Origin: Flavivirga eckloniae
GTDB taxonomy: Bacteria; Bacteroidota; Bacteroidia; Flavobacteriales; Flavobacteriaceae
Reading direction: 5' to 3'
NCBI RefSeq assembly: GCF_002886045.1
Contig: NZ_CP025791.1
Coordinates: forward strand, 5,347,001-5,411,000
DNA length: 64,000 bases
In this document: piece after piece, positions 27,546-42,552 of the stretch
Layout of the letters: the number at the start of each line of letters is the position of its first letter
How positions within the stretch are numbered: position 1 is the first letter of the stretch
Notes under the pieces: model-generated
Database searches by the model: none
What the model was told of the DNA's origin: nothing
Seen by the model: only the letters and a program-made list of their open reading frames with translations
Position numbers and translations under genes: made by a program

Positions 27546-28505
27546 ATGAAGCCACCTTATCAGATTACCGATAACACTTTAAAATTAGTTGTAGCCATTT
27601 CAGAACGACTCGGTGAAATTAGTGCAACTCATTTATACAAACCACCGACCGAATTACGAAAAAAGAACCGTATTAAAACCATACAATCCTCTTTAGAGAT
27701 AGAGGGTAATACGCTAACAAAAGAACAGATTACGGCACTTTTAGAAAATAAGCGAGTAATTGCACCACAAAAAGATATTTTAGAGGTTCAAAACGCTATA
27801 AAAGTGTATGAGCAGTTACGAACGTTTAATCCAAATAAATTAAAAGATTTAGAAAAAGCTCACAAAATTTTAATGAATGGCTTGATTGATGGTGCAGGAA
27901 AGCTACGAACTATAAATGTTGGTATTGTTAAAGGCTCAAAAGTAGAACATCTTGCCCCAAGTGGAGATATGGTTAAAGGTCTCATGAATGATTTGTTTAA
28001 CTATCTTAAAACAGATAACGATGTTTTGCTTATCAAAAGTTGTGTATTTCATTATGAGTTTGAATTTATACACCCCTTTTTAGATGGTAATGGTCGTATG
28101 GGTAGATTATGGCAAACTCTAATTTTAATGCAACAATATCCAGTATTTGAATTTCTACCAGTAGAAAGTCTTATTAAAGAAAATCAGGAGGAATATTATA
28201 AGGTATTGAGTATGTCTGATAAATCGGGGCATTCTACGCCATTTATTGAGTTTATGTTAAATATTATACTTCAAGCCTTAGAAAACCTATTGAAAATGCA
28301 GAATAGAACGCTTACAACACAAGATAGGATTGAACTATATAAAGATATCATTAAAGAAAATCAATTTAGCCGCAAGGACTATTTGCAAAACTTTAAAGAT
28401 ATAAGCCAAGCTACTGCAAGCAGGGATTTAAAATGGGCTGTAGAACAACAAACGTTGTCTAAAACCGGAGATAAAAGATTAACTAAATATCAATTTAAAT
28501 TTTAA
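27546..28505 (+). CDS. Fic-domain protein, class II (AMP/NMP transferase-type)
   Basis: A 319-residue protein. The Fic motif HPFLDGNGRMGR (His176, Arg184, Arg187) is intact, so it should be active. An inhibitory helix motif, SSLEIEGN (about residues 48-55, Glu53), lies N-terminal to the core, which defines class II Fic proteins that hold themselves inactive. A C-terminal winged-helix-like domain (about 255-319, RKDYLQNFKDISQATASRDL) may bind DNA. Fic enzymes transfer AMP or other nucleotides to target proteins; the target here is unknown. The gene stands alone, with no antitoxin partner. It sits in 1.5 kb bracketed by direct repeats, which points to mobility. Confidence 0.95.
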   Translation: MKPPYQITDNTLKLVVAISERLGEISATHLYKPPTELRKKNRIKTIQSSLEIEGNTLTKEQITALLENKRVIAPQKDILEVQNAIKVYEQLRTFNPNKLKDLEKAHKILMNGLIDGAGKLRTINVGIVKGSKVEHLAPSGDMVKGLMNDLFNYLKTDNDVLLIKSCVFHYEFEFIHPFLDGNGRMGRLWQTLILMQQYPVFEFLPVESLIKENQEEYYKVLSMSDKSGHSTPFIEFMLNIILQALENLLKMQNRTLTTQDRIELYKDIIKENQFSRKDYLQNFKDISQATASRDLKWAVEQQTLSKTGDKRLTKYQFKF

Positions 28506-28538
28506 GGAAGTATAAGGTCATTGCTAGGGAATGTTATT

Positions 28539-28699
28539 CCCGCTCTGCAAAGTCCCCGACTTTGAGGTCACTATAATTCCAAAAATATTCACATAAAGTT
28601 TTCATTTTTAATACTGATTATATTTTGTAATCCTCTTTCAAATTTTATACGCTTTGTTTATTAATGTTCCGCTAAGTGATGAGACTTTGTGGAGCGGTG
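28539..28699. repeat. Direct repeat flanking the Fic gene, right copy
   Basis: Second copy of 27222-27382 in the same orientation, starting 33 bp after the Fic stop. It ends GAGACTTTGTGGAGCGG. The rest of the gap to 28936 holds only the promoter-like boxes at 28868-28897. The terminal GACTTTGCGGAGCGG sequence recurs at 62091-62126 and 62906-62931. Confidence 0.88.
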
Positions 28700-28867
28700 T
28701 CTTTATTTTGTAAATGTAGCTGCGTGTTTCTGTATGCTAGTGAGTATCCGAGAGTGTATTAAAGATGAGATTTGTTTTCTTTACTGTGGATTTAATTTCT
28801 ATAAGATGAAAATATATTAAAACTCCAATATAACTAAACAATTTTTTAGACCTTTAGTCGATGTAAC

Positions 28868-28897
28868 TTGCTTACGGTTTAGTTTCTGCTATTTTTG
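28868..28897 (+). promoter_or_regulatory. Promoter for the histidine-kinase operon
   Basis: TTG at 28868-28870 and TATTTTTG at 28890-28897 are 19 bp apart, fitting the Bacteroidota TTG-N19-TAnnTTTG pattern. They lie 39 bp before the kinase ATG. Confidence 0.5.
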
Positions 28898-28936
28898 TAT
28901 ATTTTGTATCTAAAATTCAAATCATAAAAACTATAT

Positions 28937-30958
28937 ATGATTATAAAACAATCTTTTTTTCTAATTATTCTTTTTTTAGGATTATCTATAAATGCTCAAA
29001 GAAATGATTTTGAAAAGAATATTACTGAATTAGAACTAAAAATTAAACAATCTGTAAACGCTGAACATCTTAAATGGTTGGATAGTTTAACCACTTTAGT
29101 AGAATTTGATGAAGCGCTTAAATATGATTCTATAGCAAGAAAAACCATTACATATGCTTTAAAGTTAGATTCCCTAAACATTGCAATAACAAATACAAGT
29201 AAACTTATTCATTACCATAGTAATATAATGGGAGATTCTGAAGAAGGGTTGCGAATATTTAAAGATTTTTTGAGTACTATAGAAGCGGTAACATCTAATG
29301 CTATTAAAGGAAGGTTTTATCTCTATGGCGCAGATTCATATGCTGGTCAGGTTGATTTTGATATGGCTTTTAAATATTATGATCTAGCTAAAGATTGCGC
29401 ATTGAAAGCAAGTAATCAGTCGTTATTGGGGACTATAGCTTTAAAAACTGGAGGTGTTTTAATGGAAATGGGAGAAGCAGTTGATGCCTCAAAACACATT
29501 CAGGAAGCTATTAGAATTTTTGCTATAGAGAAGGATACATTAAACTTAATAAATGCTAAAAATGACATTTCAATTTTATACAGTCAAAATGCATTTTATA
29601 AAGAAGCAGAAAAAGAGCGTAATGAAGCCATAGCTTTATCGAATACGTTTAAACAAGAAACTGCAGTATCATTACTTTATTATAACGCAGCGGCAGATTA
29701 TAGATTAATTGACGATCAAAAAAAACGTATATCAAACTTACGATTAGCACTAAGGCATAATAATTCTGAATTCAGACGTTTTTACGAACCTTTCTTTTTG
29801 TGTGATTTAACGATAGCTTTGGCAGAAAATGATAGTATAGAAAAAGCAGAACAATATTTCGATAAAATTAAGAGTGATCCAGATACATACTCCGAAGGTA
29901 TTCAAAAAGAGATGTATATCGAAGTTCTAAAACAAATGGCTTTAGGGAAAAATCAGTTTAAAGAAGCTATTGATTATGGAAAACAGCATTTAGCATTAAA
30001 AAGGGTGCACAAAGGGTATGTAGAAATAATGAATGCTGAAAAGTTTTTGTCTGATATTTACAAAAAGACTAATGATAATAGAAACTCAGAAAAACACTTA
30101 ATTAATTACTATAAAATAAAAGACTCCATATCTAAAGTTCAAAATGTAAAGTCATTAACTTATTATCAAACGTTGTATGAAACTGAAAAGCGTGATTTAA
30201 AAATAAAAGCTCAAGAAAGTGATATTGCCTTATTAGATGAAAAGAATAAAGTAAAAAATCAATGGCTATTATTTGGAGGTTTAGGACTTTTAGCAGTATT
30301 TGGCATTGTCTTGTTATGGCGATCTAGAAATGCAGCAAGAAAACGCGAACAATTGCAAGAACAATTTTCTCAAGACCTTTTAACTGCACAAGAAGAAGAA
30401 CGAACTAGGGTATCTAAAGATTTACATGATAGTGTTGGGCAGCAATTGACATTAATTAAAAAGAAGGCTCAGAATTTGAAGCAAGAAGAATTATCTACCA
30501 TGACAAATAATGCTTTAGAGGAGGTAAGAAGTATATCGAGAGGGTTATTTCCAGCTGCATTAAAGCAATTAGGTTTAACAGAAAGTATTCAACAATTATT
30601 AAATGATTTAGATGAAGAAACCGATATGTTTTTTTCTGTAGAGATTGATGATATTGATAACGAGTTTAATGAAACAGAAACACTTAATTTGTATAGATTT
30701 ATTCAAGAAACGGTAACAAATGCTTTAAAACATGCTAAGGCTAAAACACTAACCGTAAACATTATAAAACATAATAATACTGTAGAAGTTTTAATAAAAG
30801 ACAACGGAGTTGGTTTTGATAATGTGGCGTCTGTAAAGCAACATAGTCTAGGTTTAAAAACTATAGCAGAACGCATACGTATGTTAAAAGGCACCCTGTC
30901 AATAAAAAGTAAAAAAGAAAAAGGAACGCAGGTTCTAGCTCAAATACCAATAGTATAA
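28937..30958 (+). CDS. TPR sensor histidine kinase (HisKA_3/NarX type)
   Basis: A 673-residue protein with a signal peptide ending near LSINAQ, periplasmic TPR-like repeats at about 30-410, one transmembrane helix at about 443-461 (WLLFGGLGLLAVFGIVLLW), a dimerization helix with phosphoacceptor His497 in KDLHDSVGQQL, and a C-terminal ATPase domain (N-box ETVTNALKHA, GLKTIAERIRMLKG, ending KGTQVLAQIPIV). The ATP and His boxes are intact. The response regulator starts 2 bp after the stop, so they form one two-component pair. The sensed signal is unknown; TPRs suggest a protein or peptide ligand at the envelope. Confidence 0.95.
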   Translation: MIIKQSFFLIILFLGLSINAQRNDFEKNITELELKIKQSVNAEHLKWLDSLTTLVEFDEALKYDSIARKTITYALKLDSLNIAITNTSKLIHYHSNIMGDSEEGLRIFKDFLSTIEAVTSNAIKGRFYLYGADSYAGQVDFDMAFKYYDLAKDCALKASNQSLLGTIALKTGGVLMEMGEAVDASKHIQEAIRIFAIEKDTLNLINAKNDISILYSQNAFYKEAEKERNEAIALSNTFKQETAVSLLYYNAAADYRLIDDQKKRISNLRLALRHNNSEFRRFYEPFFLCDLTIALAENDSIEKAEQYFDKIKSDPDTYSEGIQKEMYIEVLKQMALGKNQFKEAIDYGKQHLALKRVHKGYVEIMNAEKFLSDIYKKTNDNRNSEKHLINYYKIKDSISKVQNVKSLTYYQTLYETEKRDLKIKAQESDIALLDEKNKVKNQWLLFGGLGLLAVFGIVLLWRSRNAARKREQLQEQFSQDLLTAQEEERTRVSKDLHDSVGQQLTLIKKKAQNLKQEELSTMTNNALEEVRSISRGLFPAALKQLGLTESIQQLLNDLDEETDMFFSVEIDDIDNEFNETETLNLYRFIQETVTNALKHAKAKTLTVNIIKHNNTVEVLIKDNGVGFDNVASVKQHSLGLKTIAERIRMLKGTLSIKSKKEKGTQVLAQIPIV

Positions 30959-30960
30959 TT

Positions 30961-31599
30961 ATGGAAATTTCTGTTTTAGTCGCCGATGACCACCCGATGT
31001 TACTCAGAGGTTTAGTAGATGAACTTAAATCGTTTAATTATAATATCATTTCTTCAGTAGAAAATGGTGCAAAAGCTTTAGATGACATTATTTCATTACA
31101 ACCAGATATTGCCATTTTGGATATAGAAATGCCTTTGTTATCAGGTTTTGAAGTTATTCAAAAATGTTTGGATAAGCAACAAACAACAAAATTTATCATC
31201 CTGACATCACATAAACAAAAAGGCTTTATTTCAAAAGCGCAAAAACTTAATATCCAAGGGTACATTTTAAAAGATGAACCATCAATCGAACTCCATAAAT
31301 GCATTCAGGAAGTTTTTAAAGGAGGCACATACTTTAGCTCAGAATTCAATAAAATACTTGAGAATCAGATTTCACCAGAAATTGAAAAAATTAAATTTTT
31401 AAGCCCATCAGAACGTACTATTGTCCGATTGGTGGCACAGGGGAAATCTTCTAAAGAAATTGGAGAGTTATTAAGCATATCCAGTAGGACTGTAGAAAAG
31501 CACCGCTCCAATATCATTCGTAAATTAGACCTTTCAAACGAAATGGATGCCCTTAGTTCTTGGGCTCAGGAACATAAAGAGCTTATACTTTCCATATAA
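30961..31599 (+). CDS. NarL/FixJ-family response regulator
   Basis: A 212-residue protein. The receiver domain (1-125) has the acidic pair DD at 9-10, phosphoacceptor Asp54 in AILDIEMP, and Lys in YILKDEPS. The C-terminal LuxR-type helix-turn-helix (about 147-200) reads LSPSERTIVRLVAQGKSSKE followed by IGELLSISSRTVEKHRSNII. It is the partner of the kinase directly upstream. A run of TACGTA palindromes begins 28 bp after its stop and precedes the collar-protein gene, which makes that gene cluster the likely target. Confidence 0.96.
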   Translation: MEISVLVADDHPMLLRGLVDELKSFNYNIISSVENGAKALDDIISLQPDIAILDIEMPLLSGFEVIQKCLDKQQTTKFIILTSHKQKGFISKAQKLNIQGYILKDEPSIELHKCIQEVFKGGTYFSSEFNKILENQISPEIEKIKFLSPSERTIVRLVAQGKSSKEIGELLSISSRTVEKHRSNIIRKLDLSNEMDALSSWAQEHKELILSI

Positions 31600-31626
31600 A
31601 TTCGGTAAGCAATTTTCATGTCAAAC

Positions 31627-31666
31627 GCTACGTAGGGTTACGTAGTATTTGCAAGTGATACGTATT
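31627..31666. promoter_or_regulatory. Ten-bp-phased TACGTA array (candidate response-regulator operator)
   Basis: TACGTA occurs at 31629, 31639 and 31659, with the intervening 10-bp unit being ATTTGCAAGT. Read as 10-mers: GCTACGTAGG, GTTACGTAGT, ATTTGCAAGT, GATACGTATT. A spacing of exactly one and two helical turns on one face of DNA is typical of a bound activator dimer array. It lies about 90 bp before the collar-protein ATG and directly after the NarL-type regulator. Confidence 0.65.
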
Positions 31667-31756
31667 GTTATAGAATACCCCTAGTTATACCTTGCACTAG
31701 CATTGGATGTATATCCTTTCCTCAAAAAAGAGTATAACGAATTAACAATAATAACC

Positions 31757-32671
31757 ATGAAAACAAAATTTACACTTTTAACGCTATTAATGCTTTTTAC
31801 AGCAACTTTTAATTATGCACAAACCTCTGCAGAAATAGCAGATATAGCTGTACAAGGTATAGCAAGAGATGGCAATAATACAGCTAAAACAAATGCTACT
31901 ATTTCTTTAACGTTTGAGTTGTATTATTTAGATGCCAATAACGGTAATACTAAAGTAGTTATTGGTAATCCAGAAACTGTTAATTTGACGACAGATGCCT
32001 TTGGCGTGTTTTCACATATTATAAGTCCAGCGGCAACTAATAATCCCATATTTGCAAACCAACAGGTGTATTTAAAAATAAGTGAAGGGCAACAGGTCAT
32101 TTCAGAAGAAAAGTTAAAACACGTGCCTTATGCTATAGCCGCCAATAACGGGGTGCCAACTGGGGCTATTATGCCTTTTGTAGGAACAACAGCTCCAACA
32201 GGTTGGGTGTTATGCGATGGGAGGTCTTTAGTAGGAATCAATGGCTCACAAAAACTTATTGACTTGTTGGGCAGTAACATTGCCCCAAATTTACAGGCCA
32301 TGTATTTGCGAGGTGCCGGTTCTCAAGCTTATGAAGGTACCAATTATGCTGGCATCGCTTTAGGAGTTAAACAAAAGGATGGCTTTCAATCTCATGATCA
32401 TACAGCGGGAAGCTTAGAAGCGGCCAATGCGGGGCAGCATACACATGATTTAAGACAACCTTTTCGTTTCTTTGAACCTAGAAATGGGGGTAGTTCTGGA
32501 GCCACAAATGCTTTTCAAAACCAATCTGCTGCTGGAACAGGAACAGTTAATGATGGTGCCCTAGCAGCTGGCATTCATTCTCATCAAATCACAGGACTAA
32601 CCGGGGCTACAGGTACACTAGGTGAAACACGTCCTGTAAGTTACGGTGTTAACTACATCATTAAACTATAA
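31757..32671 (+). CDS. Secreted phage-tail-collar domain protein
   Basis: About 304 residues. ATG at 31757 is chosen over an upstream in-frame start at 31703 because it gives a clean signal peptide (MKTKFTLLTLLMLFTATFNYAQ). The N-terminal ~110 residues form a beta domain (ISLTFELYYLDANNG, VYLKISEGQQVISEEKLKHV). A tail-collar domain starts at about residue 136 (GAIMPFVGTTAPTGWVLCDG, then LRGAGSQ). The C-terminus is rich in His/Gly (SHDHTAGSLEAANAGQHTHD) and ends in ETRPVSYGVNYIIKL, as in tail-fibre tips and microcystin-dependent-type proteins. It is a bacterial surface protein here rather than a phage one, since no other phage genes surround it. Confidence 0.9.
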   Translation: MKTKFTLLTLLMLFTATFNYAQTSAEIADIAVQGIARDGNNTAKTNATISLTFELYYLDANNGNTKVVIGNPETVNLTTDAFGVFSHIISPAATNNPIFANQQVYLKISEGQQVISEEKLKHVPYAIAANNGVPTGAIMPFVGTTAPTGWVLCDGRSLVGINGSQKLIDLLGSNIAPNLQAMYLRGAGSQAYEGTNYAGIALGVKQKDGFQSHDHTAGSLEAANAGQHTHDLRQPFRFFEPRNGGSSGATNAFQNQSAAGTGTVNDGALAAGIHSHQITGLTGATGTLGETRPVSYGVNYIIKL

Positions 32672-32682
32672 ACTATAGGGTG

Positions 32683-35600
32683 ATGAGAAAAAAAATACTA
32701 ACTCTGTGTTTAGGGCTACTGGTTACAGGACTCTGGGCGCAACAAGATGATGGTGCCAAAATGGTTACCACATCGCAGGCCGTACAAAACAATGGTTATA
32801 CCATTCAAGTTGGTGTACCTTATTTAGGAACCAGCAATGTTGCCAATAACACCGATGCCCGTTTTCCATGGGACATATTATACATTTTTGGAACATTTGC
32901 AGAGGAATCTTTTGATGTATCTAAAGGTTATTTCGGCGATAAAGTACTGCTGCAATGGGAGCTAAGAAATAACTTCAATTTAATTACAACCATAGAAATA
33001 TCACGTAGAGAACTAGGGAGTAGCTCACAATTTCAGTTTGTAGGCAGCGTATCACCTAACGAAACCCAATACGAAGATAAATATGTGGATGGTGGTGTAC
33101 TGTATGAATATAAAGTATTGGCAAAAGGTGTAAGCCAAACCGAAGAATTATATACTAACTTCATCACAGGTGTAGGGTTTAGAAACCCAACAGCCATAGT
33201 AACAGGAAATGTAAGTTATAAAGGCGGCAACCCGGTGCAAAATGTAACTATTACAGCAGAGTCTGATGGGAGCGTTGTAAGTTATGGCAGTGGTTTAATT
33301 GTACCAGAATCTAACCAACTAAGTATAGCTAACTTAAATAAGCCTATAGATAAGACTACAACTTTACAAGCATGGGTGCGACCCGATGTGCCTTATGTAG
33401 ATGATAGTGGAAATGCTATAAGATTGTTTAGACTCAACGAGAAAAACGGAAATAATATTGATGTTACCGTTAATTTAAAAGAAACCTCTAAAACTTTAGA
33501 AGTTAGTATTGGAGGTAACCTTTATATCATTCAAAACGTTTACCCATCTGGAGATATAGATGCTCGAGGGAATGATATCATGATACCAGTATCAGATTTT
33601 AACAGCAATTTTGTACATATTACTGCCCAGTTAGAAGATAATAAAGAGCCTTTATTGTTTATAAATGGGCGCCCTATGACTGCGGCTTATAGGGATGCAG
33701 CACATGCTGCCAGAGCTGAAGTAGATGATGAAGATACCTCGCCGTATTTAGAAATAACGGTTCTAACAGTAACAACAATGTTTAATGTAGGAAGCGGTAT
33801 TTGGGAAAATGTATTTATAGGAGGAGGAAAAACGGCGTTAATTGATGAAATACGTGTTTGGAAGAGTATAGAAGCCGCTTCAGATATTCGTACCGATTAT
33901 AAGCGATACATCAGTGGAAACGACCCGGATTTGGTGGCCTATTTAAGTGCTAACGAGAATACAGGAGGCTATGCTTATGATGCCTCACGAAACGGATTCA
34001 ATTATAACAAAAATCACGGTAGTTTAAACATCCAGGGTATAAGTAACGATATCTCTTTTGTGTCTGGCGCAGGCAATATTCCATCGTCCAGCCAATTAGG
34101 TATTTTGGGAGTTACCGATGTTAACGGTAATTATGAAATCAATGCGATTCCTTATACAGGAACAGGCGAATCATTTAAAATTACACCTAGTTTTGGACAA
34201 CATAAATTTGAGCCTAATCAGCAATTGGTGTTTTTAGGTGAAGGCTCCGAAGTGGTCAATAAAATAGATTTTACAGATACCTCATCCTTTATTTTTAAAG
34301 GCAAAATATTATATGATACCAGAGGTGTATTCCCATCAGTTGCAGAAGCAGAACAAAATATAGGTAACGGTAATACCATAGCTGGAGGTGCAGCTATTAT
34401 TGATGAGAATTACAATCAATACGAAATAAATGGAGCTTTTTATAACAAAGGCGAGTATTGGTTAAACGATTTAGGGACTACTGGAAATAATGAAAAAGAT
34501 GATGATCGCTTGGATTTATATGCGCGTATTCCGGTAGCAGGAGCCAACATTTATATAGATGGCAACATTGTTTTAGATGAAAATAACGTCCCTATAGAAT
34601 CGGATAGCGAAGGTAATTTTGATATTAGTGTGCCTATCGGTAATCACTTTATTCGTGTTGCTAAAACCGGACATGAATTTACTTATGAAGGTAGGTTTCC
34701 GGCAGAAACTGGCACCTTCCAAGAGTTCTTTGAAGATGCCCAGGAACAAGTGGTGTTTATTGATGAAACACGTGTAATCGCTGTAGGTCGCGTGGTTGGT
34801 GGCTCTGTAGAAGCTCAAAAACCTATAGGGTTTGGAGAAAACGGATTGTTTGAGGTGCCTTATTTGGCTCCAGGTGGAGATACAACTTTAAGGGTAAGTT
34901 CTAAAAACAATATTGGAACAGCTACTATAACTTTGGAATTACCAGGAAGTGTATCGGATGTTACAAAGTTTGAGTTTCAAACCAATGAAGAATCAGGAGA
35001 ATACCGTATTCAGGTAATGCCACTTAACTATGAAATTGTTGGTGGTAGTGGTTTACAAATTTCTAATGCCACTATTGGTACAAGCATAATAGCAGCAGGG
35101 ACTAAGGAGACTGTTAATTTTGCAAGTATACCTCCATTATTAACTCCCGAATTTAAATATCCCGATGATGAAATTCTTGAAGGTGTACCGTATCATTTTG
35201 AGAAAAGTTTTATTTACAGATCAACACCAGTGTTACGAGTTACAGACCAAACCTCAGAAAGTGAACTTGTTTTAAAAGATGTGAATGGTGTTGACCAAAC
35301 CATAAGCACTACAGGATTTAAACATCCAAACGGATCAGGAGATGATGTGCTCATTTATAAACAGTTTTCAAATTATGAAATTGTTTTAAGTACGTTTGAA
35401 CGTTATGAAAATAAAGATAATCTTAATGATATTATTGAAGATATTGTACCCATAGTAGATGGTCAACTCAGTATAACTAACAATTTGGCGATACCGGAAT
35501 CAGAGCTTACAGAGACCGACCCTAATGACAATAGTATTACCAAGTACTCATTTATTGGAGGTGTTCCTAATACCAATACACCTTTTACACGTAATATTAA

Positions 35601-38600
35601 CATTCAATATGTTATAGAGGGGATACCTTACGATGCCGAAAATTATATTAGCGAAGGGATCATTTTAGGAGGAGCGAGAGATGGAACACAATCCATCCTT
35701 TCAGAAGCACCAGAGATTCCAGATATTATTTTAAGAGATCCGCCAGGGTCAAATAGTTTCGCATCTATAGAAGCTGGAGAAAGTATTAGTTTTACCACAG
35801 ACAATAGTTTTTCAAGTGGAGGAGGCATTTCTCAAAGTGTGAAATTAATGTTGGGAGGTGATGTATCCATTGTTGCAGGGCCTCCGGGAGCGGGACTTAT
35901 TGTAAATACCGAAGTTACCAATAGTTTAACAGGAAATATTTCAGTAGAAGCCTCTTCTAAAGATGGCAATAGTATTACCAAAACCTATACATTCAATCAA
36001 ACCATATCAACCAGTGATGACCCGGAATTTGTAGGAGCTGAAGGTGATTTATATATAGGAAATTCTAAAAATTATTCTAAAGGTAGTTTTGATGATTTTC
36101 AAGCAACTTTAGATCAGGTAGGTGATCCTGGTGATAATTTTGAATTAACCAATGGCAATGGTGATAAAGTGTATTTAAATAAACAAAAAGCCTTTTATCT
36201 TGGAGAAAAGCCAACAAATACCTTCTTTGTGTATTCTCAAAAATTCATTATTACCGATTTAATTCCGGAATACGAAGCTATTGTAGAAACTTTATCAACA
36301 GGAGGTACGGTTGAAAATGCAAAACCTCAATCTTGGTATGAAAATCAAATTGATTTATGGCGCAGAATCATATTAAATAATGAACGTAGTAAATATACAG
36401 CGCTAAATGATCCTACTTTTATTGGATTAACGGCTCTAAATGCTATTAATGCATATACTGGAGACCTCCAGGACGAAATAAATAATGCACAAGTAGGTGG
36501 GCCTTATGAAAGCTTATTGCAAGAGAAATTAAAACTAGCGGATTCACAAAAAGCTTTAATCTCATCAAAATCGCAGGATAATATCACGTTCGATTCCGGT
36601 GTTGGTGAAGTGTCCAGAAGCATAGAATCTGTCGTTGTTAATACATCAACTTTAGAGTTTGATATTAACATAGAAGAAAGTTTACAATTACAGTTAGGCT
36701 TTAGTGTCAATAAATTGGGAATAGAATCTACAACAACAGGATTTGCAAGTCAGGCATTTAGTGCGTCCTTAACAGAAGAAGATACAAAGACCACTACTAT
36801 TAACTACACGCTTAAGGATAATGACCCAGCTAATGTATTAAGTGTAGATATTATCAATTTGTTTGATGGTAGCGGTCCTATATTTACAACTGTAGGAGGT
36901 AGAACATCTTGTCCTTATGAAGGTGCTGAATTATCACATTATTATAACCATGCAACTTATAACCCTAACAACCCAGTTATAGAGTTGGCTCAGGGAGATA
37001 GAGAAACATTAAGTAACGCAACAGAAAGGGCAGAAGACCCTAAAATTCTTGTTGAGGTTGCTGAAATTTTTAATATCCCGGAAAGTAACAACGCAGAATT
37101 TAAATTACTACTCTCAAATAATGCAGATGCTACAAGCGATGCCGCTAGCTTTAATTATTTTGAACTTATTGTAGATAATACCACCAATCCTAACAATGCA
37201 CTAATAAATGTAAGCCAGAATGGAACTGTAGTTTTTGTGCCATATGGTCAAACGGTTGAATATACGTTAACATTAGGGAAATCAGTATCCGATGTTAATG
37301 ATTACGAAGATATTCGCGTTATTTTACAATCGCAATGCGATCCAGTGAATGTTTTTGATGATGTATTGATTTCTGCGCATTTTGTACCATCCTGTTCTCG
37401 AGTAGCCGTTAAAGCACCATTAGATAATTGGGTGTATAATACTAGCAGTTCAACAAGTCCGCTAACGATTAACTTATCAGAATACAATCAAGCCTTTGAT
37501 AATTTTGAAAAGATAGATTTAGAATACCGTTTAGCAACAGCTCCAAATTGGACACGATTGCAAACGTTTTATAACGGAACCATACCAGCAGGTGCCACTT
37601 TGGCTTCTTCAATAACAGACGCAGAAGTTGTTTACGCTTTCGATATTGTAGAATCGGGACTGCAAGATGGTAATTACGAAATAAGAGCGCGAAGCACATG
37701 TACCAATGGTACAGAGTTTATTTCAGAAGTTATTTCAGGTAGTGTAGACTTAAAATCACCACAGCAGTTTGGAACCCCATTGCCAACCGACGGCATATTG
37801 GGTCCGGGAGAAGATTTGCGTGTGAGTTTTAATGAAAACATCTTTTATAACAGTGCCTTGAGTACCATTGAGATAAAAGGAGAAACCAATCAATTGCCAA
37901 TAGATAATAGTGTGTCCTTACGTTTTGAAGGTGCTAATAACACGGCAACAATAGAAAGTCCGAGATTAGTATCAGGAGACCTGTCAGTAGAATTTTGGAT
38001 GAACAATGCCACAATTGCATCAACAGCTGCTATTATCAATCAGCAAAACGGATTAAACATTCGTTTAGAAAACGGAGATATGTATGTGTCTCTTGGAGAT
38101 ATAATAGCCAATGGTACTATAGCAACAGATGGCTTGTTTCACCATTATACCATTACACACGACAATGCTTCAGGAAGCCTTAGTATTTATGAAGACGATA
38201 GAGATATTGGCGGTAGTACAGGGACTGCAAACACACAATTTACTAATAATAATCCATTAGTTATTGGAGGCAACACATTTATAGGGAATATGCATAGTTT
38301 ACGACTATGGACTAAATCCCTAAGTTTAAGTAAAGCCTATGCTAATATCTATACGAAGTTATTAGGAAACGAAGCAAATTTAGTTGGCTATTGGCCCATG
38401 AATGAAGGACGTGGGACTATTGCAAATGATTTAGCACGATTTAAACATGCAGCAGTTACAGCAGATTGGGACATTAAACCCAAAGGTACCTCTTATGAGT
38501 TCGCCAATGGACAGTATCAGGAGTTAGATAATGTTGGTTTTGTACAATTAACCAATGAGATGGATGCCACGATATCCTTCTGGATAAAAACAGGAACGGC

Positions 38601-41208
38601 CCAAGAAGCCACCATATTCTCTAACGGACGTGGAAATGGAGAAGATCCAATACAATCTGTTGGACTATCGAACAAATGGGCTATAAATATGAATAGTACT
38701 GGAGCCTTATCTTTTGCAAGTGAAGGTAATAGCTATGTGTTAACAGCAGCAAGTGTGGCCGATAATAATTGGCATCATATAACCTTATTATTCAACAGAA
38801 ATGGCTCTTTAAGAACCTATGTAGATGCACAACAAGTATCATCTAATCCTATTACAGATATAGGAGGTTTTTCAGGAAACCAAGCCTGGTTAGGAGCTAG
38901 AGGGTTTAAAGACCAAGGAGGTAATGAAACTGTAGACAGGGCATTTACTGGTAAAATTGATGAGTTTAGGTTATGGAATACCTTGCGTAATGTAGACCAA
39001 ATATCTAGAGACCGTTTTAACGAAATGGATGTGGAAAGCATTGGACTATTATTATACGCTCGTATGAATGCACCTGATCCTGCAACAGCTAATGGGCCAC
39101 GATATTATCATGCCTTTAGCAATCAAAGTGTCATACCAACAAATGCCGTATTAAGTGCAGGAGCTGTGAATTATTCAGATGATGTACCAGCCATTAAACC
39201 AGAGCGTAAGCTTATCAAATTCCAGGTGAATCATGTCATTAACGAAGATGATATGATTATTGAGCCTGCTATTTCCGACTGGGCAGCACTGGAAGGTCAA
39301 ATTCTTGATATTACTGTACACAGAATGTTTGACGCATCAAATAACCAACAACAATCACCAATTACCTGGACCGCGTTTGTTCAGAAAAATGAAATGAGCT
39401 GGTTTGTTGATGGCTTTAATAATGTGGTTGATATTGTTAAAACAGGAAATGAATCACCTTCGTTTGAAATTACTATTATCAATAAAGGTGGTTTAGTACA
39501 GCCTTATAATATTGCAGGAGTTCCTAATTGGTTGTCTTTAAGCAGTACATCAGGAAGTTTAGCTCCAGATAGTAAGGTAGTCATTACTGCCACTATTGAT
39601 GAAGGCCTCTCTGCTGGAGAGTATCTGGAAAATCTGTATTTGCAAACCGATTTTGGTTTAGATGAAAAACTACAATTAGAAGTTAGAGTATTAGCAGAAG
39701 AGCCAGACTGGGCGATAAACCCTAATGACTTTGATTTTAGTATGAATATTGTAGGACGTATTAGCGTCGATGGTGTATTCTCAGATGATTTATACGATAA
39801 AGTGGCTGCGTTTTCTAATGGAGAGCTTAGAGGTGTTGCGAATGTGGTTTATGATGAGTCGTATCAGGAATATTTTGTATTCCTAACGGTTTATAGCAAT
39901 GCGGTATCTGGAGACCCAATTAATTTTAGTATTTGGGATGCCTCAATGGGGCAGATTGTTCAGGCAACTATTGATGCTAATGCATCAGTAACCTTTACAG
40001 AAAATAATGTGCTAGGCACACTAAGTAGTCCATCGCTTTTTGAAAACACGAGCACTGTTGAACAGGAAATAAATTTAAATCAAGGCTGGACCTGGGTGTC
40101 GTTTAATGTTAATGATGCGAATTTCTCAGATTTAAATGCCTTAACATCAGGTATGAACTTAGAAACTTCAGACCGTATGTTGAGCCATTCACCAACTCAG
40201 TTAGAAACCTATTTTAAGGATGTAAACAATGCGGCAAATAGTTCATGGAGTGGAGCTATTAGTGCGAACTCGGGATTATCAAACAACTTTATGTACAAAA
40301 TGAAGTTTGCTCATGGCCAGCAATTAAGAGTTAAAGGAGGTCAAGTGGATATCGGTAGTTGGAGTTTCCCTATACAACAAAATTGGAACTGGCTACCCTA
40401 TCCTTTAAGTAAGAACGTATCAGTAAACGAAGCCTTATCCACTTTTGATGCCACAGATGGCGACATTATAAAATCACAAAACCTATTTGCCATTTACGAC
40501 CCCTTAAACGGATGGAGTGGAACTTTAAGCTATCTGGAAACTGGTAAGGGATATATGGTGAAATCTAGTAAAGATCAAACCTTTAAGTATGCTAATATTT
40601 TTGGAAAATCTTCAAGCACGAAGATTTCAAAAAATACTAACACGGCATTTGTGCACAAACGTACTGAACCAGAATTTGCAAAATATTCAGAGAATATGAA
40701 CGCTGTGGTTTTACTGCCTGAGGGATATCATGAACTCTTTATTTATGATGAAGATGGTGTGCTAAAAGGTGAGGCAACTAACCAAATAGTAAGCGATAGA
40801 GCACTAAGTTTTATTACCATATATGGTGAACAACCAAAATCGTTAACCTTTCACATAGGTAACGGTAATATTCAAAGACCAACACAAAAAACAGTAACCT
40901 TTAAAAGTAATGTAGTGTTAGGTACGGTGGCAGACCCAGTAGTGTTGGAATCTGATATTTTAGAAAGTCTTAAAATGTATCCAAACCCGTTTAAAAATGA
41001 ATTGATGTTACAGCTTAATTCTAACGAAGTAAGTAATATGGAGCTCAAACTATTCAATGTGGTAGGACAACTTGTTCATTCAGAAACACACAAAACAAAA
41101 AAAGGGCTAAATACAATTAAGCTGACTCCAAGAATTAGTAACGGCGTATACTTTTTAAAAGTGAATCTCAACAATGTAAATACAACCTATAGAATCATTA
41201 AAAACTAG
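32683..41208 (+). CDS. Giant LamG-domain surface protein with T9SS sorting signal
   Basis: A 2841-residue protein with a signal peptide (MRKKILTLCLGLLVTGLWAQ). It has a fibronectin-like region near 85-170, a LamG/concanavalin-type domain at about 200-430, two more at about 1735-1910 and 1935-2130, each ending in a DEIRVW or DEFRLW type motif, then a BACON-like beta domain near 2255-2340. A domain at about 2340-2446 is shared with the next gene. Tryptophan-rich repeats follow (INLNQGWTWVSFNV, IQQNWNWLPYPLS). A type A T9SS sorting domain (about 2765-2842) has MYPNPFKNELMLQL and GVYFLKVNLNN. It should be exported and attached to or released from the surface, probably as an adhesin or ligand-binding stalk. 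No enzyme motif was recognised. Confidence 0.93.
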   Translation: MRKKILTLCLGLLVTGLWAQQDDGAKMVTTSQAVQNNGYTIQVGVPYLGTSNVANNTDARFPWDILYIFGTFAEESFDVSKGYFGDKVLLQWELRNNFNLITTIEISRRELGSSSQFQFVGSVSPNETQYEDKYVDGGVLYEYKVLAKGVSQTEELYTNFITGVGFRNPTAIVTGNVSYKGGNPVQNVTITAESDGSVVSYGSGLIVPESNQLSIANLNKPIDKTTTLQAWVRPDVPYVDDSGNAIRLFRLNEKNGNNIDVTVNLKETSKTLEVSIGGNLYIIQNVYPSGDIDARGNDIMIPVSDFNSNFVHITAQLEDNKEPLLFINGRPMTAAYRDAAHAARAEVDDEDTSPYLEITVLTVTTMFNVGSGIWENVFIGGGKTALIDEIRVWKSIEAASDIRTDYKRYISGNDPDLVAYLSANENTGGYAYDASRNGFNYNKNHGSLNIQGISNDISFVSGAGNIPSSSQLGILGVTDVNGNYEINAIPYTGTGESFKITPSFGQHKFEPNQQLVFLGEGSEVVNKIDFTDTSSFIFKGKILYDTRGVFPSVAEAEQNIGNGNTIAGGAAIIDENYNQYEINGAFYNKGEYWLNDLGTTGNNEKDDDRLDLYARIPVAGANIYIDGNIVLDENNVPIESDSEGNFDISVPIGNHFIRVAKTGHEFTYEGRFPAETGTFQEFFEDAQEQVVFIDETRVIAVGRVVGGSVEAQKPIGFGENGLFEVPYLAPGGDTTLRVSSKNNIGTATITLELPGSVSDVTKFEFQTNEESGEYRIQVMPLNYEIVGGSGLQISNATIGTSIIAAGTKETVNFASIPPLLTPEFKYPDDEILEGVPYHFEKSFIYRSTPVLRVTDQTSESELVLKDVNGVDQTISTTGFKHPNGSGDDVLIYKQFSNYEIVLSTFERYENKDNLNDIIEDIVPIVDGQLSITNNLAIPESELTETDPNDNSITKYSFIGGVPNTNTPFTRNINIQYVIEGIPYDAENYISEGIILGGARDGTQSILSEAPEIPDIILRDPPGSNSFASIEAGESISFTTDNSFSSGGGISQSVKLMLGGDVSIVAGPPGAGLIVNTEVTNSLTGNISVEASSKDGNSITKTYTFNQTISTSDDPEFVGAEGDLYIGNSKNYSKGSFDDFQATLDQVGDPGDNFELTNGNGDKVYLNKQKAFYLGEKPTNTFFVYSQKFIITDLIPEYEAIVETLSTGGTVENAKPQSWYENQIDLWRRIILNNERSKYTALNDPTFIGLTALNAINAYTGDLQDEINNAQVGGPYESLLQEKLKLADSQKALISSKSQDNITFDSGVGEVSRSIESVVVNTSTLEFDINIEESLQLQLGFSVNKLGIESTTTGFASQAFSASLTEEDTKTTTINYTLKDNDPANVLSVDIINLFDGSGPIFTTVGGRTSCPYEGAELSHYYNHATYNPNNPVIELAQGDRETLSNATERAEDPKILVEVAEIFNIPESNNAEFKLLLSNNADATSDAASFNYFELIVDNTTNPNNALINVSQNGTVVFVPYGQTVEYTLTLGKSVSDVNDYEDIRVILQSQCDPVNVFDDVLISAHFVPSCSRVAVKAPLDNWVYNTSSSTSPLTINLSEYNQAFDNFEKIDLEYRLATAPNWTRLQTFYNGTIPAGATLASSITDAEVVYAFDIVESGLQDGNYEIRARSTCTNGTEFISEVISGSVDLKSPQQFGTPLPTDGILGPGEDLRVSFNENIFYNSALSTIEIKGETNQLPIDNSVSLRFEGANNTATIESPRLVSGDLSVEFWMNNATIASTAAIINQQNGLNIRLENGDMYVSLGDIIANGTIATDGLFHHYTITHDNASGSLSIYEDDRDIGGSTGTANTQFTNNNPLVIGGNTFIGNMHSLRLWTKSLSLSKAYANIYTKLLGNEANLVGYWPMNEGRGTIANDLARFKHAAVTADWDIKPKGTSYEFANGQYQELDNVGFVQLTNEMDATISFWIKTGTAQEATIFSNGRGNGEDPIQSVGLSNKWAINMNSTGALSFASEGNSYVLTAASVADNNWHHITLLFNRNGSLRTYVDAQQVSSNPITDIGGFSGNQAWLGARGFKDQGGNETVDRAFTGKIDEFRLWNTLRNVDQISRDRFNEMDVESIGLLLYARMNAPDPATANGPRYYHAFSNQSVIPTNAVLSAGAVNYSDDVPAIKPERKLIKFQVNHVINEDDMIIEPAISDWAALEGQILDITVHRMFDASNNQQQSPITWTAFVQKNEMSWFVDGFNNVVDIVKTGNESPSFEITIINKGGLVQPYNIAGVPNWLSLSSTSGSLAPDSKVVITATIDEGLSAGEYLENLYLQTDFGLDEKLQLEVRVLAEEPDWAINPNDFDFSMNIVGRISVDGVFSDDLYDKVAAFSNGELRGVANVVYDESYQEYFVFLTVYSNAVSGDPINFSIWDASMGQIVQATIDANASVTFTENNVLGTLSSPSLFENTSTVEQEINLNQGWTWVSFNVNDANFSDLNALTSGMNLETSDRMLSHSPTQLETYFKDVNNAANSSWSGAISANSGLSNNFMYKMKFAHGQQLRVKGGQVDIGSWSFPIQQNWNWLPYPLSKNVSVNEALSTFDATDGDIIKSQNLFAIYDPLNGWSGTLSYLETGKGYMVKSSKDQTFKYANIFGKSSSTKISKNTNTAFVHKRTEPEFAKYSENMNAVVLLPEGYHELFIYDEDGVLKGEATNQIVSDRALSFITIYGEQPKSLTFHIGNGNIQRPTQKTVTFKSNVVLGTVADPVVLESDILESLKMYPNPFKNELMLQLNSNEVSNMELKLFNVVGQLVHSETHKTKKGLNTIKLTPRISNGVYFLKVNLNNVNTTYRIIKN

Positions 41209-41213
41209 AAGCT

Positions 41214-42134
41214 ATGAAACGTATAATAACAAACATAATAGTATTCTTTTTTATAGGAATAACCGTTTATGGTCAAGAGCCAACATGGTCTGTAAACGAA
41301 AATGATTTTGAATATACCATGTCATTTGTGGCCTTTTTAAATGTAGATGGAGCAACATTAACCAGTACTAATGATAAAGTGGCGGCATTTGTAGGTGGTG
41401 AATGCAGAGGTGTTACTAACTTAATTTATGTATCAGGTAAAGATCGCTATTATGCTTACTTTAATGTGTTTTCAAACACCAATGGAGAAGCGTTGAATTT
41501 TAAAGTTTACGACTCCACCAACGATAATGTTGTGGATATAGTTAAAACAGTAAATTTTGAAATTAATGCTCTTTATGGCGATTTAGCACAAGCCTTTAGT
41601 TTTGCGAGCCCCGCTTTAAATGATAAAGCAGAACTCATTAGTTTTAATTTTAAAGATGTCACTATTAGTAATAGGAACATACAAGATAATGCCATGACAC
41701 TTTATGTAGATAATGGTATAAACGTATCAGCCTTAACTTCCATTTTTGAATTAAGCACAGGTGCGCAACTGTTTAGTGAAAGTCAAAAATTAATCTCAGA
41801 TAGCAACGTATTAGATTTTACCAATTCTGTCATAGTTGAAGTGCTTTCAGAAGATGAATCTACACGCAACGAATGGGAAATAACCGTAAGTTATAATGCC
41901 GTAATAGGGAATTTAACCTTTTATAAAAAAGATGCCGTGTGTTATAGTGGGGGTGCTATTAAGGTATTGTCTTCCGAAAATGGTAGCGAAGTGGTATTAC
42001 TTAAAAATCAGGTGGTACAAGCTGCTCAAACCTTAAATAACGGCGAAGTTATTTTTACCAGTTTAGGTGCAGGAGATTATACCATTCAAGTTAATGGATT
42101 TGAAAAACAGATAAGTATTAATTTAAAAGAATAA
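41214..42134 (+). CDS. Secreted companion protein sharing a domain with the giant protein
   Basis: A 306-residue protein starting 5 bp after the giant gene, with a signal peptide ending near TVYGQ. Residues about 22-135 (EPTWSVNENDFEYTMSFVAF, DKVAAFVGGECRGVTNLIYV) match residues about 2340-2446 of the giant (EPDWAINPNDFDFSM, DKVAAFSNGELRGVANVVYD). A further beta domain (about 140-235) and a C-terminal domain with CYSGGAIKVLSSENG follow. No T9SS sorting signal is obvious. The shared module suggests the two proteins bind the same partner or assemble together. Function unknown. Confidence 0.82.
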   Translation: MKRIITNIIVFFFIGITVYGQEPTWSVNENDFEYTMSFVAFLNVDGATLTSTNDKVAAFVGGECRGVTNLIYVSGKDRYYAYFNVFSNTNGEALNFKVYDSTNDNVVDIVKTVNFEINALYGDLAQAFSFASPALNDKAELISFNFKDVTISNRNIQDNAMTLYVDNGINVSALTSIFELSTGAQLFSESQKLISDSNVLDFTNSVIVEVLSEDESTRNEWEITVSYNAVIGNLTFYKKDAVCYSGGAIKVLSSENGSEVVLLKNQVVQAAQTLNNGEVIFTSLGAGDYTIQVNGFEKQISINLKE

Positions 42135-42138
42135 AGTA

Positions 42139-42552
42139 ATGCGAACAAAATATTATTACATAACCATAATAATCCTATGTTTTGTTTTAGGATGCTCAAA
42201 AAATGATGATGATCCGGTACCACCACCAGCCACTGTAGAAAGTTTTGATCCCGTGTCTATTGAATTTGTTCATGAAGACGGTACTGGTATTACAGCAAAT
42301 GATTGTATTACACCAGATGAGGCCTATGCTATTCAAATAACAACAACTAAAAATAGTAGTGGAACAACAAAAGTCTCTAAAATAGAATATACCATTAATG
42401 GTGCATTGTATAGCATGTCATTTTCAGAAGCAGGAACAAAAAGAAACCCTATTGTGTTGGTTTATGGAAGAAATGTAGCAGAATTATCCTCAACAGGTAC
42501 TTCTAATGAAGTAAACTATATAGAACAAGGGGAGTTTGAACTAGTTAATTAA
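42139..42552 (+). CDS. Small lipoprotein, last gene of the collar/LamG operon
   Basis: A 137-residue lipoprotein (lipobox FVLGC, Cys19) followed by a short acidic/proline linker (SKNDDDPVPPP) and a beta-rich domain with one further Cys. It starts 4 bp after the companion gene, so it is co-transcribed. No family was recognised. A small outer-membrane lipoprotein could anchor or help export the secreted partners. The stretch after it, to 42953, holds no gene that I can see. Confidence 0.75.
   Translation: MRTKYYYITIIILCFVLGCSKNDDDPVPPPATVESFDPVSIEFVHEDGTGITANDCITPDEAYAIQITTTKNSSGTTKVSKIEYTINGALYSMSFSEAGTKRNPIVLVYGRNVAELSSTGTSNEVNYIEQGEFELVN

Follow-up and report, generated by a model that had tools for sequence, protein, structure and literature searches.

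The closest described counterparts of the element considered here are the operators of bacterial response regulators. FixJ of Sinorhizobium meliloti, which acts at the fixK promoter, has the consensus GTAMGTAG as determined by systematic evolution of ligands by exponential enrichment (SELEX), and FxkR, which acts upstream of fixKf in Rhizobium, has the site GTTACA-N4-GTTACA (PMC4999443). StyR activates the PstyA promoter of Pseudomonas fluorescens from a site at about -40 (PMC2442086). For the promoter itself the nearest counterpart is the SM5 motif, TAnnTTGY, which one Flavobacterium psychrophilum study maps at -12 to -5 (PMC9723704). The window, the whole 64,000-nucleotide (64-kb) stretch of the Flavivirga eckloniae genome analyzed here, carries three TACGTA boxes between the gene for a NarL/FixJ-type response regulator and the gene for a secreted protein with a phage-tail-collar domain. 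These boxes very probably form the operator of the adjacent regulator, from which it would activate the collar operon. To our knowledge, few response-regulator operators are known in Bacteroidota, and the promoters of this phylum are atypical.

As a response-regulator operator, the array is of a known kind. It shares with FixJ a NarL/FixJ-type regulator with a GerE helix-turn-helix (HTH), and the site core TACGTAG, like sites 1 and 2 (CTACGTAG and TTACGTAG), matches 7 of the 8 letters of GTAMGTAG and site 3 (ATACGTAT) matches 6 of 8 (PMC4999443); degenerate relatives of the window array use TAAGTA, the other M variant of that consensus. However, FixJ answers to the sensor FixL rather than to a TPR kinase, and here there are three boxes, with a spacing of 10 + 20/21 bp, in front of a surface-protein target. 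A candidate assignment of the regulator as a FixJ ortholog was rejected, as it scores 63 bits against an NCBIfam FixJ equivalog cut-off of 255; its working is FixJ-like, but it is not FixJ. The FxkR site likewise consists of six-base boxes that are separated by 4 bp and so repeat after one helical turn (PMC4999443), although its hexamer is a different one, whereas the window hexamer is itself palindromic and is followed by a third box 20/21 bp on. StyR is likewise a response regulator with an activating site at about -40 and a further upstream site, but phylum, signal and target differ, and its upstream site lies much further away, at -110 to -90 (PMC2442086). The window box TACCTTGC matches the motif of the SM5 promoters of F. 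psychrophilum, for example that of remFG-sprCDBF, an operon that likewise encodes an adhesin exported by the type IX secretion system; the accessible part of that source describes neither a TACGTA array nor a response regulator at these promoters (PMC9723704). No earlier description of the operator was found in the open-access literature searched, which leaves out most subscription papers.

The sequence-only reading of this DNA had described the array as four consecutive 10-bp units phased at exact helical turns. Three TACGTA boxes in phase are indeed present, starting 29 nt after the end of the regulator gene, and the layout in the window is three sites, not four units. The 10-bp unit at 31649, TTGCAAGTGA, contains TTGCAA and lacks TACGTA, and a hidden fourth half-site at -51 was rejected, its resemblance to TACGTA across 33 regulator-linked arrays being no greater than at neighboring offsets. 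The first interval is 10 bp, and the second, from site 2 to site 3, measures 20 or 21 bp. The remark that CG-containing palindromes are scarce here is only partly right, as TACGTA itself stands at background, with 10 copies in the window against 9.86 ± 3.03 expected from dinucleotide shuffles. At the window rate, a simple product gives about 0.0016 pairs spaced by 10 bp per window. The genome scan for phased pairs that had been proposed as a check gave no enrichment, for pattern searches of the whole 5.67-Mb genome find TACGYR-N4-YRCGTA at 3 places, one of them inside aroE, against 6 for the reversed control. The case for the array therefore rests on conservation.

Comparison of related loci, in which conservation was computed directly, provides that evidence. 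An exact TACGTA-N4-TACGTA pair lies 3' of the gene in 12 of the 15 regulator orthologs with at least 60% identity, and degenerate pairs lie 3' of two more (one with one substitution, L035, and one reading TAAGTACCCCTACTTA, L030; L numbers are our handles for loci). In the nearest relatives (L146, L226 and Gaetbulibacter sp. 4G1, L216) the distance from the regulator reading frame to the array is the same as in the window, 33 bp as measured in this comparison. Across 111 regulator-homolog loci, exact TACGTA reaches a density of 4.4/kb within the 400 bp that follow the gene, compared with 0.27/kb at 500–900 bp and 0.34/kb inside the gene, so the motif is not equally frequent elsewhere. The same loci contain 55 exact pairs at a spacing of 10, against a simulation mean of 0.02, and 18 at a spacing of 20/21. 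An unbiased scan for TACGTA-N4-TACGTA-N14/15-TACGTA, made without reference to the regulator, yields 19 matches in 17 of 301 family genomes and 0 for the reversed control; 15 of the 19, from 14 genomes, follow the gene for a regulator that belongs to the window's clade, and one of these genomes (L267) matches on both strands. A wider scan of 84,980 species genomes was sampled as 114 stretches among the matches listed. There, the regulator lies at most 600 bp upstream on the same strand for 23 of 33 arrays whose 4-bp spacer is G/C only, and for 3 of 56 arrays whose spacer has at most one G/C; the latter, drawn from many phyla, look like AT-rich coincidences. In all, the array recurs at the same promoter distance in dozens of related marine bacteria, and its conservation at orthologous loci shows that the window array is not a product of chance. 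Homology to the collar protein alone was rejected as a route to orthologous loci: it gave matches in only 2 of 150 other family genomes, and the array is seen at neither of these loci.

Operator type also tracks the phylogeny of the regulator. On a tree of 96 homologs, operator or cargo type, the cargo being the genes behind the array, changes 24 times, compared with 55.9 times with shuffled labels, a linkage that was again computed directly. Triple arrays fall almost wholly within the clade of the window regulator, and doublets of the TACGTAGAAGTGCGTA type and inverted forms of the TACGTG type occur in sister clades. In the 400 bp that follow their genes, seven NarL-type regulators from other clades, encoded in the F. 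eckloniae genome, show no pair of this kind. Together, the conservation at orthologs and the clade-linked operator types argue for the earlier suggestion that the array is the candidate binding site of the neighboring regulator.

The sites, their spacing and their distance to a promoter box can likewise be read and computed directly. Among 33 distinct regulator-linked arrays, 32 have a TAnnTT[TG] box that starts exactly 29 bp beyond the point where their last TACGTA starts (shuffle maximum 4), and in 21 of the 33 the box has the TAnnTTGY (SM5) form. In a wider set, a box at this distance accompanies 39 of 112 doublets (shuffle maximum 8). If the numbering of SM5 is carried over from F. psychrophilum, transcription is predicted to start at about 31700, and the boxes would lie at about -41, -61 and -71, the position of an activator. 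Activator sites of the class II type stand at a constant distance directly before the core promoter, and the 29-bp spacing has this form. Most probably the TPR histidine kinase encoded upstream phosphorylates the regulator; the regulator would then dimerize and bind both the pair spaced by 10 bp, at about -71/-61, and the lone box near -41. Bound there, it would sit beside RNA polymerase at the TACCTTGC -7 box of an atypical flavobacterial promoter, and contact with the polymerase would activate the operon of collar, giant LamG, 306-amino-acid (aa) and lipoprotein genes. Binding, its dependence on phosphorylation, an activating and not a repressing effect, and the start of transcription are all predictions from sequence.

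Other explanations of the array differ in how far they depart from this one. The regulator might bind but repress the operon, or both activate and repress it. StyR, an activator from about -40, also represses when its upstream site is occupied and two dimers touch (PMC2442086), and the -71/-61 pair could play the part of that upstream site. This is nevertheless unlikely for the window, where all sites stop short of the -7 box and leave both it and the predicted start free; the fixed 29-bp distance fits polymerase contact, not occlusion. We give rather less credence to the idea that some other DNA-binding protein, such as a global regulator or an alternative sigma factor, uses the array while the regulator is a bystander. 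Some arrays do lie without a regulator within ~8 kb, and the F. psychrophilum study places SM5-type boxes at promoters where no such regulator was proposed (PMC9723704). However, operator types partition with regulator clades, the link between array and regulator is same-strand and mostly <50 bp across many genera, and the only two credible operators of the F. eckloniae genome adjoin its only two regulators of this family. It is very improbable that the inverted repeat works as RNA, as an intrinsic terminator of the kinase-regulator operon. TACGTA-GGGT-TACGTA can fold into a hairpin, and the doublet in the sister loci with small RNA (sRNA)-like elements has runs of A and T on its flanks (AAAAAATACGTAGAAGTGCGTATTTTTT) in terminator-like fashion, but the window array has no T run and 0 terminators are called in 30900-32000. 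Neither the third box 20 bp on nor the constant box distance has a role in termination, and where tandem copies lie between sRNA units, their distance to the box is unchanged. In the sister clade, the terminator shape may represent an additional function. A chance coincidence of AT-rich hexamers has a negligible probability. TACGTA stands at background in the window and phased pairs do not exceed the control in the genome itself, but conservation in dozens of genomes, with zero control matches, refutes this explanation. The earlier view that the phasing exceeds chance is thus upheld by the orthologous loci and not by the counts within the genome.

Several observations do weigh against an operator serving the adjacent regulator and its operon. 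One ortholog (L029) has no array, and 24 of the 96 regulator loci in the tree have no recognizable strict operator. In Dokdonia (L190, L213) and Winogradskyella (L189), some arrays stand in front of other exported genes and have no regulator close by, so the neighboring operon is in some cases not the sole target. In addition, the palindromes can form a hairpin at the RNA level (z-score -2.5). On balance, activation by the adjacent regulator is the explanation we favor, and the sequence-only reading is supported in substance; it did not notice that the promoter box stands at a fixed 29 bp, that the cargo is exchangeable or that there are sister loci of the sRNA type.

Table 1. Features of the F. 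eckloniae window, followed by related loci named in the text. Positions are window coordinates unless a locus handle is given.
Feature	Position	Strand	Position relative to predicted start	Remarks
Sensor histidine kinase	28937..30958	+		Signal-peptide-like N-terminus; Pfam HisKA_3, HATPase_c; weak TPR match (TPR_12, below the Pfam cut-off)
NarL/FixJ-type response regulator, likely array binder	30961..31599	+		Pfam receiver and GerE HTH
TACGTA site 1	31629-31634		-71 to -66	Letters read directly
TACGTA site 2	31639-31644		-61 to -56	10 bp from site 1
TACGTA site 3	31659-31664		-41 to -36	20 bp from site 2
-7 promoter box TACCTTGC	31688-31695	+		Matches F. psychrophilum TAnnTTGY (SM5) motif
Predicted leader, 57 nt	31700..31756	+		No notable structure; fold z-score 0.19
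Secreted protein with phage-tail-collar domain, first gene of predicted target operon	31757..32671	+		Pfam Collar
2841-aa secreted protein, LamG domains and type IX secretion sorting domain	32683..41208	+		Pfam
306-aa protein, likely same operon	41214..42134	+		Signal-peptide-like N-terminus; 5-nt gap
137-aa predicted lipoprotein, likely last operon gene	42139..42552	+		4-nt gap
Paralogous regulator, same genome	G000:C1:2408260-2408883 (L008)			44% identity
Two tandem ~70-nt sRNA-like units behind paralogous regulator	L008 2129-2420 (G000:C1:2408888-2409170)			
Cargo: collar homologs	L189, L221			
Cargo: YadA-head with S74 chaperone	L249			
Cargo: HYR with type IX sorting domain	L161, L223			
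Cargo: BspA-type repeats	L243			
Cargo: Big_2	L230			
Cargo: thiol-activated-cytolysin-like	L153, L188			
Loci of the TTACGTGTTAACACGTATTT-type clade	L070, L072-L074, L077, L081, L082, L088-L092, L094, L096-L099, L102			

The gene order in the window is as first described, with the array lying between the regulator and the collar gene. The regulator has the domains of the NarL/FixJ type, Response_reg (7e-21) followed by GerE (8.8e-16), and its receiver retains the acidic pair and the phospho-acceptor Asp, with ADDHP and AILDIEMP aligned to DDHP and LLDLNMP of NarL. Its matches in the PDB are NarL, VraR, EsrB and FixJ, and orthologs are present in 152 of 301 family genomes (E<=1e-30). Of 32 array-type loci checked, 28 have the histidine kinase directly before the regulator. 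Exact TACGTA is absent from 28505-28937, upstream of the kinase, where an autoregulatory site was sought. In the operon, the 306-aa protein and the 137-aa lipoprotein have no match in Pfam or NCBIfam.

The sRNA branch of the regulator family is unexpected. Behind a paralogous regulator in the same genome, each of two tandem units contains a 10-bp-spaced TACGTA doublet, a promoter box at the 29-bp distance, and an element of ~70 nt, GCUAUUAAUUAGUUCUUAGGGAGAAUUAU, together with a terminator-like helix. An alignment of 35 copies of the element gives 17 pairs in RNAalifold, 15 of which have at least one two-sided compensatory change. These changes are strongest in the terminator helix, and since that helix would be retained in any terminator, its covariation is evidence of a terminator and not of a specific function as an sRNA. 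With a covariance model, the element is detected in 22 of 60 relatives, among them 12 of 12 genomes of the genus, and no Rfam family matches it at gathering score across 28 loci. Two loci (L292, L296) have copies without a TACGTA operator, behind other inverted repeats (TACGGAATCCCGTA and ATACTCAATTTGAGTAT), and this RNA family may therefore answer to several regulators. Rfp18 of F. psychrophilum, a conserved flavobacterial sRNA, is possibly related; compared by description only, it has at least three stem-loops, of which the third pairs, whereas the sister-locus element has two.

The first doublet of these loci has features of its own. In L114-L135 the regulator gene stops a few nt before it, and it takes the A-stem-T form typical of intrinsic terminators; in L008 its fold z-score is -4.0. 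From this shape, the first doublet in sRNA-type loci may be operator and terminator in one element. Instead of a kinase, the paralogous regulator has genes for a CHAT-domain protein and a retropepsin-like aspartyl protease in front of it (L008 1-1444), a neighborhood that is unusual for a response regulator. In a further clade, the inverted form TTACGTGTTAACACGTATTT precedes a gene for a ~55-aa predicted single-span membrane protein, the transcript of which carries a conserved CAACTAACTAACCAAA stretch and a terminator at its end.

Genes behind the arrays encode diverse proteins. The same collar gene follows the array in three loci (L146, L226, L231), and all 21 of the first genes read start with an apparent signal peptide or lipoprotein signal, as judged by eye. 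Regulator and operator are constant, and the apparently exported product varies. In Spongiivirga citrea and in a Flavobacteriaceae genome, the first cargo gene behind the array is lipoprotein-like with a thiol-activated-cytolysin domain (L153 3771-5690, L188 4273-6303). In the Dokdonia loci (L186, L190, L213, L232), one gene cluster holds several arrays, every one of them in front of a large exported repeat protein, and just one of the arrays adjoins the regulator. The several arrays per cluster suggest that the cargo gene was duplicated along with its operator.

Operator, promoter box and exact spacing together provide a ready-made, testable promoter architecture. The motif finds targets of the whole regulator clade, among them surface adhesins, cytolysin-like proteins and a multi-copy sRNA absent from Rfam. 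More tentatively, with a probability we place slightly below even, the array may belong to a module spread across the Flavobacteriaceae, in which one NarL-type clade keeps a TACGTA operator and promoter 3' of its gene and the cargo is exchanged for an unrelated exported protein, a small membrane protein or tandem copies of an undescribed ~70-nt sRNA. If so, the same signaling logic would act via surface proteins in some lineages and via RNA in others.
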